From Prosthecobacter sp. SYSU 5D2 (GTDB lineage: Bacteria; Verrucomicrobiota; Verrucomicrobiia; Verrucomicrobiales; Verrucomicrobiaceae), in the NCBI RefSeq assembly GCF_039655865.1, contig NZ_JBBYXL010000004.1, forward strand, positions 62,001-126,000: DNA of 64,000 nucleotides, read 5' to 3'. The number at the start of each line of letters is the position of its first letter. Position 1 is the first letter of the stretch. Both the position numbers and the translations under genes were made by a program. This document shows, piece by piece, positions 57,054 through 62,046 of the stretch. Below the pieces are notes generated by a model. It saw nothing but the letters and a program-made list of their open reading frames with translations. It was not told the DNA's origin and searched no databases.

Positions 57054-58781
57054 ATGAGCACACAAAAAATGGACGGCGCACAGGCGCTGATCAAAACCCT
57101 GGCCGATCTCGGCATTGAATACGTGTTCGGATATTCGGGTGGCGCGGCCATCCCGATCTTCGACGCTCTCGAAACCATGAAGACGGACATGAAGTTCGTC
57201 CTCGTGCGCCATGAACAGGGTGCCGTCCACATGGCCGATGGGTATGCCCGCGCCACAGGCAAGCCCGCCGTGGTGCTCGTGACCTCCGGCCCCGGTGCCG
57301 GCAATACCATCACCGGTCTCATGACGGCCCAGATGGACAGCGTGCCCATGATCGTGCTTTGCGGCCAGACGGTGAGCTGGATGCTGGGCAAGGATGCTTT
57401 CCAGGAAGCGGACATCTTTAACATCACGGCTCCCGTGGTGAAGCATAATTACCTGGTGAAGGATACCAATGCTATCCCGCGCATCGCCCGCGAGGCCTAC
57501 CACATCGCCACCACCGGCCGTCCCGGCCCGGTGCTCATTGACATTCCGAAAGACAAAAGCCAGGCCCCCTTTACCGGTAACTACGATGAGCCTATGGACC
57601 TTCCTGGATACCATCCGGAAGAGTCTTTGAAGATTGACATGAAGGGCATCGAAGAAGCCGCCGCCCTCATCGCCCAGTCCAAGCGCCCCGTCATCCTCGC
57701 CGGCCAGGGAGCCATGATCGCCCGTGCGGACAAGGAACTGCTGCAGCTTGCCGAAACCCTCGGCGCGCCAGTGACCACCACCCTGCTGGGCAAAGGTGTG
57801 TTTCCTGAAACCCACGCGCTCTCGCTCGGCATGCTCGGCATGCACGGCACCGCCTATGCCAATAAGGCCATTTGCGAAGCCGACCTCATTCTTAACATCG
57901 GCTCCCGCTTCGATGACCGCATCATCGGCAAGGCCCACATGTTCGGCCGCAATGCCAAGCTCATCCACATTGATATTGATGCGGCGGAGTTTAACAAAAT
58001 GATCCAGGTGGATGTGGCCATCAAGGGCGATGCCAAAGCCGCCCTGACCAAGCTGCTGCCGCTCATGGAGAAACTCCCTACCGAAGACTGGGTAGAGCAT
58101 CTGGACGGCTACAAAAAGAAATTCCCCCTCACTTACAAGAAGCAGGGCGGCCTGCGCATGCAGCAGGTCATTGATGAGCTTTACACCCTCACCCAGGGCA
58201 AGGCCATCGTCACGACCGATGTGGGCCAGCACCAGATGTGGGCGGCCCAGTTCTACAAGAATGATGCCAGCTATCATTGGATCAGCTCCGGCGGTGCAGG
58301 CACGATGGGCTTTGGCTTCCCGGCCGCCATTGGTGCGCAGCTCGCCTGCCCGGACAAGCTCGTGGTGACCATCTGCGGTGACGGCGGTTTTCAGATGACC
58401 CTGTTTGAACTGGCCACTGCCGCCATCCACAAGCTGCCCATCAAAATCATCATCCTCAACAACAGCTACCTGGGCATGGTGCGCCAGTGGCAGGAGCTGT
58501 TCTTTGAAAACCGTGAAAGCGGGGTGGATCTCGTTGGCAACCCTGACTTCGTGAAACTTGGCGAGGCCTATGGCATCAAAGGCTTCCACATCCGCCGTCC
58601 AGCCGATGTGGAGCGTATCCTCCAGCAGGCTCTCGACTACAACGACGGCCCTTGTATCATCGAAGCCGAGTGCATCAAGTATGAAAACGTGTTCCCGATG
58701 ATCCCTGCCGGCGCGGCCCTCGAAGACATGATCACCGAGGCACCCAAGCACAAGATGGAGAAGCCCACCGGTTCCACGTAA
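57054..58781 (+). CDS. ilvB: Acetolactate synthase, large subunit
   Basis: The 575-residue thiamine-diphosphate enzyme condenses pyruvate to acetolactate or acetohydroxybutyrate for valine, leucine and isoleucine. [20 protein letters not shown] has the catalytic Glu. The diphosphate motif [16 protein letters not shown] and following [13 protein letters not shown] are clear. The regulatory subunit ilvN lies downstream, separated by a DNA methyltransferase gene. Confidence 0.95.
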
Positions 58782-58785
58782 TACT

Positions 58786-58846
58786 CGGAGCGCGGACGTC
58801 CCCGTCCGCCTCCAGTCTTGCTCCGGACTGCGGACGCCCCGTCCGC
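58786..58846. repeat. Twin palindromes between ilvB and the methyltransferase
   Basis: GCGGACG/CGTCCGC occurs twice, with arms at 58792-58798 and 58803-58809 and at 58830-58836 and 58840-58846. A short CAGTC/GACTG pair lies between them. The element starts with ACTCGGAGC, the inverse of the CTCCGAGT core seen at 30.5 and 37.9 kb. Confidence 0.65.
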
Positions 58847-58859
58847 TTCCCCTCCTCCC

Positions 58860-59648
58860 ATGAAACTGAACACCGTCATCAAGGGCGATGCGTTGAAAGA
58901 GTTAAAAAAGCTCCCCAATGCATCCGTCCAGGCGGTGATCGCCGACCCTCCTTATTTCAACGTCCTCGAAGATGAAGCCTGGGACACGCAATGGAAAACG
59001 CCCGAAGCCTACCTTGCCTGGTGCAAGCGCTGGGTGGCGGAGTGCCTGCGCGTGCTCAAAGATGACGGCCTCTGCTTCATCTTCGGCCAGTTAGGCAAGC
59101 GAGAGCACACCTTCATTCACCTCATGTCCCAGCTCTGTCTCCAGCACGCTTATCACGATCTCATCATCTGGGACCGTGCCGTGGGCTACAATGAACGCCG
59201 GGACAGCTTCACCCCGCAGTATGAGATGATTCTCGTCCTGCGGAAGGGGGAGAAGGTCAAGTTTAACAAAAAGTCCGTACGCATCCCTTACGATGCCGAG
59301 ACCATCTCCGCCTACCTGCGCGACACGCGATACAAGAACATGGAGGCCCGCAAAGCCCACCTTGAAGAGGGCAAATTCGCCACCAACATCCTCCGCATTC
59401 CCAGCCTTAAAGGCCTCAACAAGGAGAAGTGCGGCCACCCTAGCCAAAAACCCCTGGCCCTCATCAGCAAACTCATCTCCTGCAGCACCGACGCCGGCGA
59501 TGTCGTCCTGGATCCCTTTCTGGGCAGCGGCACCACCGCTGTCGCTGCAGAAAAAGAAGGCCGTCCATGGATCGGCATCGAATGTGATGCCACATACGCG
59601 AAAATAGCCCGCCAGCGCCTTAAGACCAGCCGCATTACTCTTTCTTAA
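58860..59648 (+). CDS. DNA methyltransferase (N6_N4 class), orphan
   Basis: The 262-residue protein has motif IV first (VIADPPYFNVL, Asp-Pro-Pro-Tyr at 29-32) and motif I late (DPFLGSGTTAVAAE), so it is of the beta class that methylates adenine N6 or cytosine N4. The segment HPSQKPLALISKLI is also typical. No restriction enzyme or specificity subunit is nearby. It may be an orphan regulatory methylase. It sits between ilvB and ilvN on the same strand; the spacing is 78 bases upstream and 37 downstream. Confidence 0.9.
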   Translation: MKLNTVIKGDALKELKKLPNASVQAVIADPPYFNVLEDEAWDTQWKTPEAYLAWCKRWVAECLRVLKDDGLCFIFGQLGKREHTFIHLMSQLCLQHAYHDLIIWDRAVGYNERRDSFTPQYEMILVLRKGEKVKFNKKSVRIPYDAETISAYLRDTRYKNMEARKAHLEEGKFATNILRIPSLKGLNKEKCGHPSQKPLALISKLISCSTDAGDVVLDPFLGSGTTAVAAEKEGRPWIGIECDATYAKIARQRLKTSRITLS

Positions 59649-59685: not shown

Positions 59686-60231
59686 ATGAGCGACCGCATC
59701 CCCGCCACCACCGATAAAAAACCAGCCCCGCTGGCCGACATCATCAACATCCACACGCTCAGCGTGTACGTGAACAACCAGCCCGGCGTGCTCGGCCGCA
59801 TCTGCGCGGTCTTCAGCCGCCGCGGGTTCAACATCGAATCCCTCGTCGTGTCCCAGACACGCGACCCGCGCTTCAGTCGCATGACCATCGGCATCAGCGG
59901 CCACCCGGAAGGCCTGCACCAGATCATCATGCAGGTGAACAAGCTCATTGACGTGATCCACTGCGCCGAGCATAACGACACTGACGCCGTGGCCAAAGAA
60001 CTCGTGCTGGTCAAGATCGCCGCCGGCCCTGAGCAGCGCACCGAAATCCTCCAAATCGTTGAGCATTACGCCGGCAAAACCGTGGACCTTCAGGATGACA
60101 GCCTCATCGCCATGATCAGCGGCAACACCGACAAGCTGGACGCCGCCGTGCGTCTGCTCAGCAAGTTTGAGATCGTCGAAACCGTGCGCACCGGCAAGGT
60201 GGTCATGGCACGCGGCCTCGAGACGACCTAA
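59686..60231 (+). CDS. ilvN: Acetolactate synthase, small (regulatory) subunit
   Basis: The 181-residue protein begins with an ACT domain (HTLSVYVNNQPGVLGRICAV, GFNIESLVVSQTRDPRFSRM). It binds valine and controls IlvB. The C-terminal half resembles IlvH/IlvN in general (RTEILQIVEHYAGKTVDLQD). A terminator follows. Confidence 0.95.
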   Translation: MSDRIPATTDKKPAPLADIINIHTLSVYVNNQPGVLGRICAVFSRRGFNIESLVVSQTRDPRFSRMTIGISGHPEGLHQIIMQVNKLIDVIHCAEHNDTDAVAKELVLVKIAAGPEQRTEILQIVEHYAGKTVDLQDDSLIAMISGNTDKLDAAVRLLSKFEIVETVRTGKVVMARGLETT

Positions 60232-60654: not shown

Positions 60655-62046
60655 ATGCCCCAGCGCATTGCCCTCTTTGGAGGCAGCTTCAATCCACCTG
60701 GCCTGCATCATCGCGTCATCGCCCAGCGCCTCGCGCAGGAGTTTGACCGCGTATGCATCATCCCCTGCGGCCCACGTCCGGACAAGCCGGTCACGGATTC
60801 CATCCCTGCCGTTTACAGGGCAGCTCTTGCCGATCTCACCTTTGGCAGGCTGCCCGGCGTCACCGTGGACCTCTTTGACCTGGAGCAGTCCACCTTCACG
60901 CCCAATTGGGATCTCCAGGCCCGTTACGAGCCGGAGGGGGAGGTCTGGCACGTTGTCGGGGCAGATCTCGTCGCGGATGGGGCCACGGGCGAGTCCATGA
61001 TCCAGCGAACCTGGAAAAACGGTGCCTCCCTCTGGCAGACCGCCCGCTTCGCCGTGCTCACGCGTCCGGGTTATGTCATGGAGCCTGCAGATCTCCCGCC
61101 GCATTCACAGGTCTTCCAGATTAAGGAAACAGGTTCCAGCACCGTCATCCGCGAAAACCTCAGCAAAGGCCGGCCGGTCGAAAACCTCCTGTCCACCCGT
61201 GCCCTGGCCTATATTGCCCGGTACGGTTTATATAGAGCTCCCAACCCGGCAAGCTGGGCGCAGCAGAGCCTCAGCGGACATACGTTTTCCGCCCAGACCG
61301 ATCCGCACAACGAAAAAGCCAAAGCCTGGCTGGCCGACCTAGGCCCCGGCACGGAGGAAAATCCGGGCTTTATCACTGTACTTGGTGGCGATGGAGCCAT
61401 GCTCCGCTGCATCCGCGAGCGCTGGCGTGAGAGGCTGCCCTTCTTCGGTATCAATGCTGGCCATCTCGGCTTCCTCATGAATGCGCCTGAGCAGGTCTTC
61501 GGCAGCCCTTTTCCGCCTGCGGATGTCATCCTCCGCCAGATGCCGCTTCTCTATATCGAGACCGTTGACCGCGAAGGCCGCGTGCAACAGGCCTATGGCT
61601 TCAATGATGCCTGGCTGGAGCGCTCCACCAGCCAGAGCGCCTGGCTGCAAGTCATCGTCAATGGCGTAGAGCGCATCCCCAAGCTCGTCAGTGACGGTGC
61701 CCTTGTGGCCACCGCCGCCGGCTCCACCGCCTATGCCCGCAGCATGGGCGCCAGCCCTCTCCTCGCAGACACCCCCGCCTGGCTCCTCGTCGGCTCCAAT
61801 GTCATGGAGCCCGCCCATTGGCGCAGCGCCCTGCTTTCCGTGGATAACACCGTGGAAATCCGCAGCCTCAGCCCGGACCACCGCCCCGTTCAGGCCTATG
61901 TGGACGGTCTCAGTCTCGGGGAGGTCATCACCTTCCGCGCCCGGCTCAGTCGCGCCGCCAGCGCCGAGCTGGCCTTCTGCGCCAGCCATGACATGGCGGA
62001 CAAGATCGCCGCCATCCAGTTTCACCGTTCCACCGATGGCCACTGA
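60655..62046 (+). CDS. Fused NadD-like adenylyltransferase and NAD kinase
   Basis: A 463-residue protein. Residues 1-195 look like nicotinate-mononucleotide adenylyltransferase: FGGSFNPPGLHHRVIAQRL, the VVGADLVADG segment, FAVLTRPGYVMEPADLPP and the S-S-T-V-I-R motif at 161-166. The usual H/T-x-G-H motif reads Gly16-Leu-His-His19, so its first His or Thr is lost. Residues 210-463 look like NAD kinase: VLGGDGAMLR (GGDG at 244-247), INAGHLGFL and SDGALVATAAGSTAYARS (346-363). The fusion would make NADP from the mononucleotide in one chain if both halves are active. Confidence 0.88.
   Translation: MPQRIALFGGSFNPPGLHHRVIAQRLAQEFDRVCIIPCGPRPDKPVTDSIPAVYRAALADLTFGRLPGVTVDLFDLEQSTFTPNWDLQARYEPEGEVWHVVGADLVADGATGESMIQRTWKNGASLWQTARFAVLTRPGYVMEPADLPPHSQVFQIKETGSSTVIRENLSKGRPVENLLSTRALAYIARYGLYRAPNPASWAQQSLSGHTFSAQTDPHNEKAKAWLADLGPGTEENPGFITVLGGDGAMLRCIRERWRERLPFFGINAGHLGFLMNAPEQVFGSPFPPADVILRQMPLLYIETVDREGRVQQAYGFNDAWLERSTSQSAWLQVIVNGVERIPKLVSDGALVATAAGSTAYARSMGASPLLADTPAWLLVGSNVMEPAHWRSALLSVDNTVEIRSLSPDHRPVQAYVDGLSLGEVITFRARLSRAASAELAFCASHDMADKIAAIQFHRSTDGH

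Follow-up and report, generated by a model that had tools for sequence, protein, structure and literature searches.

Two-domain enzymes of NAD metabolism and the HxGH motif

Two-domain proteins are known in the NAD pathway, including NadR and NadM-Nudix and also PRK07152, a NadD with a second domain of the HD type. PRK07152 and PRK14076 (NADP phosphatase/NAD kinase) are among the NCBIfam families matched by the gene described here and, like it, they join pyridine-nucleotide enzymes in one chain. To our knowledge, no two-domain protein of this pathway joins NadD with NadK or carries a G-x-H-H motif, and searches of the open-licence PMC literature brought up no earlier account of this kind of fusion or of the G-x-H-H form.

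HxGH is regarded as a superfamily signature in a study of E. coli NadD (PMC1249556). The same study assigns H19, R46 and D109 to the active site, D109 by mutation, and reports that H19A retains 0.62% activity and that H45A gives colonies near normal (PMC1249556). In the FAD synthetase of C. ammoniagenes, mutation of either HxGH histidine brought kcat below 0.1 per min vs 17 for the wild type (PMC3509593). The locus reported here, from Prosthecobacter sp. SYSU 5D2, holds a NadD-NadK fusion that, judged by sequence comparison, is real and family-wide and carries the variant motif G-x-H-H; its N half is probably catalytic.

A single gene with a NadD-like and a NadK-like half

The window, that is, the whole stretch of 64,000 nucleotides that was analysed, contains on its plus strand a 463-residue frame that begins with ATG at 60655, ends with the stop codon at 62044-62046 and has no internal stops. 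The preliminary description had proposed that this one chain joins a NadD-like half (residues 1-195) to an NAD kinase half (210-463), and both the single frame and the domain limits were borne out, the latter by Pfam and NCBIfam matches. The features of the gene are the following:

60655-62046, plus strand: NadD-NadK fusion gene, 463 aa (P0001), from the open reading frame and 14 full-length homologues from named contigs
60655-61239, plus strand: NaMN/NMN adenylyltransferase-like half, residues 1-195, from Pfam, NCBIfam and PDB sequence matches and a model compared with PDB NadDs
60700-60711, plus strand: G16-L17-H18-H19 at the place of HxGH; G-x-H-H in 57/57 distinct fusion N halves
60964-60966, plus strand: D104, presumed equivalent of E. 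coli D109 by alignment and spacing; 100% in fusions and separate NadDs
60979-61002, plus strand: eight-residue insertion 109-116 (GATGESMI) between D104 and W120; alignment columns 100% gap in 52 separate NadDs
61132-61152, plus strand: GSSTVIR, residues 160-166; S162 and R166 100% in fusions, S161 82%
61240-61281, plus strand: linker, residues 196-209, between the domain matches and mostly variable among homologues
61282-62043, plus strand: NAD kinase half, residues 210-463, from Pfam, NCBIfam and PDB matches and a low-confidence model
61384-61407, plus strand: kinase motif GGDGAMLR, residues 244-251, aligned to M. tuberculosis NadK; invariant columns (A248 varies)
61693-61734, plus strand: kinase motif DGALVATAAGSTAY, residues 347-360, from the same two comparisons

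In Pfam, PF01467 (cytidylyltransferase-like) matches residues 7-167 above its cut-off (3.1e-9) and PF01513 (NAD kinase) matches residues 219-279 (7.2e-8, 33.3 bits vs a cut-off of 25.5); PF20143 at residues 341-398 stays below its own (0.0023, 18.1 bits vs 23.7). The NadD models of NCBIfam cover residues 3-195 (NF000840, 69.6 bits, cut-off 150; TIGR00482, 65.7 bits, cut-off 112.45) and the NadK models residues 212-457 (PRK04761, 145.2 bits, cut-off 211), every model among the best 25 of 31 families scoring below its own cut-off. A phmmer search of the PDB placed NadDs at residues ~3-195 and NAD kinases at ~238-418. By these matches, the N half is clearly a relative of NadD and the C half a relative of NadK.

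Structure modelling, which the preliminary description had suggested, points the same way. In the AlphaFold model, the N half is predicted to have a nucleotidyltransferase fold of NadD type: in the comparison with the PDB, ranks 1-30 were all NadDs (Z 18.0-19.3, rmsd 2.3-3.0, 169-186 aligned), further NadDs stood at Z 16.6-17.6 among NMNATs, and CoaD came at 14.8 and below. The full-length model, built from a 10-row alignment, is a weak one with a mean pLDDT of 58.8 and N-half blocks at 43-94. The predicted kinase half (residues 198-463), a low-confidence model with a mean pLDDT of 58.2 and likewise a 10-row alignment, matched NAD(H) kinases in 50/50 rows (Z 11.4-12.3, rmsd 5.0-6.9).

The N-half active site

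The reading G-L-H-H in place of H/T-x-G-H, put forward in the preliminary description, holds at residues 16-19, within the context GGSFNPP-G16-L17-H18-H19. In the alignment, G-x-H-H occurs in all 57 distinct fusions (exact duplicates only were removed, near-identical copies being counted separately), with ten different residues at x, whereas 51 of 52 separate NadDs have H-x-G-H and the remaining one H-x-A-H. These 52 comprise the 30 proteins that scored best with TIGR00482 in the phylum sample, which are biased to canonical motifs, 20 proteins from the order, one from genome G254 and one from an actinobacterial plasmid. Thus (H/T)-x-G-H is absent from the fusion N halves and just its final histidine is retained (57/57). 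GGSFNPPG-x-HH was also present in 15/15 relatives found when one genome per species was scanned. The numbering 16-19 coincides with that of E. coli NadD (PMC1249556).

Around the motif, much of a NadD site is kept. H19, K44, R55, G102, D104, W120, R137, S162 and R166 are 100% conserved across the 57 fusions, and the S-S-T-V-I-R motif was rightly described as intact. By alignment and spacing only, the counterparts of R46 and D109 of the E. coli enzyme, the SSxxIR motif and the tryptophan are kept as K44, D104, S162/R166 and W120. The N half resembles NadD (TIGR00482, PF01467) in its modelled fold (Z up to 19.3), its GG-S-F-N-P start, its second histidine, K44, R55, D104, W120, R137 and the S162 and R166 of an SSxxIR-type motif. 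It is unlike NadD in G-x-H-H, the eight-residue insertion, H43D, T87L, its score below the cut-off and its NadK partner. Peculiar to the fusions, and almost without variation among them, are G16, H18, D43, L87 and the insertion 109-116, in which G109 and I116 are 100% and S114 96% conserved. Position 43 is D in fusions vs H in 85% of separate NadDs, and position 87 is L in 98% of fusions vs T in 94% of separate NadDs. If D43 corresponds to E. coli H45, its change may be mild, because H45A colonies are near normal.

The loss of the first histidine is a real objection to activity, because mutants of either histidine fail in the C. ammoniagenes FAD synthetase. It could be explained by a non-catalytic N half that senses pyridine nucleotides or ATP, by binding or allosterically, on behalf of the kinase, an unrecognised enzyme making NaAD. 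The break of HxGH in 57/57 distinct fusions fits such a domain, as does the abolition of a related adenylyltransferase by single histidine changes (PMC3509593). The 100% conservation of D104, K44, R55, H19, W120 and R166, however, would be unexpected in full for a mere binding domain. Since glycine has become histidine in every fusion compared and x is free, the pattern suggests either that H18 stands in for the missing ring or that ATP is placed in another way.

The kinase half

The kinase half retains the GGDG, DG and GSTAY motifs. By and large this bears out the earlier statement that all kinase motifs are intact; in comparison with the M. tuberculosis kinase, GGDGA (for GGDGT), ND (for NE) and TAAGSTAY (for TPTGSTAY) deviate. 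The closest described type is PRK04761, which its plasmid relatives indicate is alphaproteobacterial. This is the best match in NCBIfam (145.2 bits), and the likeness extends to GGDG, DG, GSTAY and a grouping with alphaproteobacterial kinases in the tree. The fused kinase is unlike that type in scoring below 211 bits, in TAAGSTAY and GGDGA, and in its position behind a NadD half.

Distribution of the fusion

The scan of one genome per species, whose patterns came from a single protein and reach close relatives only, gave 15 relatives, of which 14 are full length with 50-82% identity. These 14 stand under the record names Prosthecobacter, Brevifollis, Verrucomicrobiaceae or Verrucomicrobia, and include Brevifollis gellanilyticus NBRC 108608. 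The preliminary description had also proposed looking for the same domain order across Verrucomicrobiota, and whole-genome surveys covered this phylum and order. With an N-half profile run on 288 genomes of the order, the fusion type was found in 65 of the 68 own-family genomes (f1, with Prosthecobacter and Brevifollis, assigned via identical loci); the three genomes without a match (G427, G347 and G393) are 78-90% complete. A frame of at least 461 aa, enough for both halves, is seen in 59 of the 65, among them G215, which is cut by a contig end, and six have shorter frames (G451, G379, G351, G399, G460 and G424). Elsewhere in the order, the type occurs in G290 (family f64) and G461 (family f2). 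In a phylum-wide draw, 7/387 genomes matched at E 1e-24 or better, all with frames of at least 462 aa: six of the own family and G254, which belongs to a different family in the class and has a sequence matching that of locus L014.

A similar frame could come about in one record through a sequencing or assembly fault that ran two genes together, or through a change that arose by chance in a single strain. Nothing in the window points to this, and among the homologues one, L015, has a disrupted frame. The intact frame, the 14 full-length homologues, whose contigs come from various isolates and assemblies, and the dozens of genomes, with 65/68 of the family carrying the N half, exclude such an artefact or a split gene, leaving it a negligible probability. 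Nor are there shared neighbour genes able to carry a common error: when six neighbouring window genes were sought in 18 fusion loci, several of them with short flanks, a single partial match was obtained (L009, 34% identity). Because neighbours are nearly absent from these loci, the conserved unit is the fusion and not its surroundings.

No unfused G-x-H-H protein was met in the searches, which took in the phylum N-half profile, IMG/VR and the phage and plasmid collections. In IMG/VR, the coded motif had 0 exact matches, and the one NadD-like protein that came up, distant and unfused, carries HLGH. Distant NadD-like matches were found in 12 phage and 35 plasmid records, with listed identities below 32% (30/35 plasmid records listed); the motif was examined in one of these, L197.

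As a separate observation, in L015 (JAGKWZ010000277.1, ~1813-2938) the N half does not share a frame with the GSTAY motif, and the distance between the two is shorter than in the window gene, so that this sequence would be either a broken fusion copy or an assembly fault.

Other nadD and nadK genes and the route to NAD

The preliminary description had considered that a separate nadD might accompany the fusion in every genome. On the contrary, TIGR00482 scored above its cut-off in 0/68 genomes of the family; in the phylum sample, which takes in six members of the family, it did so in 269/288 genomes. In the own genome, which is 99.98% complete, no second nadD was found, TIGR00482 matching the fusion and CoaD only. 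All five PF01467 matches of this genome were assigned, namely the fusion and CoaD (TNGH), RibF (HLGH), an HldE-type domain (HAGH) and PanC (HEGH), the last four keeping HxGH or TxGH. A PF01467 search would also pick up NadM and NadR. The absence of substitutes is judged by homology, which a non-homologous NaMN adenylyltransferase would escape.

The lack of a separate nadD in the family and of another candidate among the PF01467 proteins of the own genome weighs further against a non-catalytic N half. That reading draws some support from G254 and G461, which have a separate nadD beside the fusion, and on balance we regard it as unlikely. An N half active in an unusual way and a binding or allosteric domain had both been offered at the outset; the former is much better supported, by the 0/68 count and by the conserved site residues.

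No second NAD kinase was found among the PF01513 matches above the cut-off in the own genome. The other such match, which adjoins nadA, was rejected as an NAD kinase, being lipid-kinase-like (it scores best with the MamU model, short of that model's cut-off); four further PF01513 matches are all below the cut-off, and two PF02540 matches exist besides those named. The kinase profile, which picks up separate kinases of the order's other families at ~38-70 bits, found only the fusion or contig-split pieces of it in 31 of 32 matching family genomes (33 searched; G347 gave no match). The exception, G351, has an extra unfused alphaproteobacterial-type NAD kinase (L188) on a 5.1 kb contig (C393), probably a contamination. 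G187 has a second PF01513 match.

In G290, the only PF01513 match is the fusion. The same is true of G254 at E 1e-4 or better (L169:6218-7621, L170), where a canonical HxGH nadD is kept, and G461 has separate nadD and nadK genes besides the fusion. Transfer, retention or binning error may lie behind both genomes. The G461 fusion (L167:9122-10522, C2) lies between ABC-transporter ATPase-like and MFS-like genes, as a look at the sequence indicates, and reads VGG where other fusions have VDG; it is possibly a transferred, diverging copy.

The own genome contains nadA, nadC, nadE and pncB (nicotinate phosphoribosyltransferase), so its route needs NaMN adenylylation. Its NadE is a protein of 650 aa (PRK02628, 849.7 bits), a length presumably typical of the glutamine-dependent form. 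Because the genome makes NaMN and has this NAD synthetase, NadE acts between the two halves of the fusion. The claim that the halves perform two consecutive activities in NADP synthesis would thus be right if the N half used NMN and does not apply to the NaMN route.

An active N half that prefers NMN would make NMN, NAD and NADP truly consecutive in salvage, with NaMN as second substrate, and overlaps with the explanation preferred below. H43D, T87L and the insertion 109-116 may lie near the substrate, and direct channelling would be an obvious rationale for a fusion. Nevertheless, the genome makes NaMN via nadA/nadC and pncB and has NadE, and the sole PF04095 match is the nicotinate phosphoribosyltransferase; the NMN preference is thus doubtful, if deserving of more weight than a non-catalytic N half.

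Phylogeny and selection

The N-half tree, in which all 52 separate NadDs and 24 fusion rows out of the 57 distinct ones were kept, unites the fused N halves in a single clade (SH-aLRT 100) with a long stem. The kinase halves also form one clade once L065 and L097, which are contig-end fragments, are counted as fusions, and this clade groups with alphaproteobacterial kinases over very long branches. The trees were made with a quick method, midpoint rooting and shallow sampling; with such long branches they do not fix a sister group for the N or the kinase halves, and they are compatible with one event each for the fusion and the motif change. No intermediate between a separate NadD and a fused G-x-H-H protein was found in the genomes searched.

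NG86 gave dN/dS values of 0.08-0.19 (N half) and 0.02-0.18 (kinase half), each in 6 usable of 7 pairs, dS having no computable value in one N and one K comparison. These ratios are rough because dS exceeded 1 in all six N-half pairs and in most comparisons overall. Taken together with the conserved residues, the N-half active site looks remodelled under constraint rather than decaying.

Proposed function and meaning

The gene would encode a bifunctional enzyme, the sole source in the cell of both NaMN (or NMN) adenylyltransferase and NAD kinase activity, with a remodelled N-half site. The sequence comparisons establish the fusion, its conservation, its clade and the lack of recognisable substitutes within the genomes searched; catalysis, substrate and the part played by each changed residue are inferred. 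This explanation is given a probability of about 0.8. The N half would transfer AMP from ATP onto NaMN to form NaAD, the separate NadE would convert NaAD to NAD, and the C half would phosphorylate NAD to NADP. The motif would have changed from H-x-G-H to G-x-H-H apparently once, on the stem of the clade, with loss of the first histidine, replacement of the glycine two residues on by histidine, and retention of H19, K44, R55, D104, W120, R137, S162 and R166. H18, perhaps with the insertion 109-116 and D43, may take over phosphate binding or reposition ATP. Speaking against activity are the replacement of H43 and T87 of separate NadDs by D and L, the scores below the curated NadD cut-offs, and the canonical nadD retained beside the fusion in G254 and G461.

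A broader proposal, to which we give even odds, is that G-x-H-H is a new working HIGH-type adenylyl-transfer motif, in which the job of the first histidine is done at the glycine position within a pocket remodelled at 109-116, D43 and L87. The NadK-fused enzyme would then have replaced nadD and nadK family-wide, coupling the steps that flank NadE and possibly acting as a scaffold for it. A natural change of two motif positions, 1 and 3, that is fixed in a family's sole and apparently essential enzyme offers a system for probing what the motif needs, and the fusion would physically tie NaAD formation to NADP formation. For annotation, the curated TIGR00482 cut-off would label all 68 family genomes nadD-negative.

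Other observations in the genome

The own genome also holds, at L017:808-1875 (contig C14, ~120665), a 355-aa frame in which an HldE-type heptose-1-phosphate adenylyltransferase domain is fused to PurN. In the window, a DNA adenine methyltransferase-like gene (58818-59648) lies between the genes for the large (57054-58781) and small (59686-60231) subunits of acetolactate synthase.
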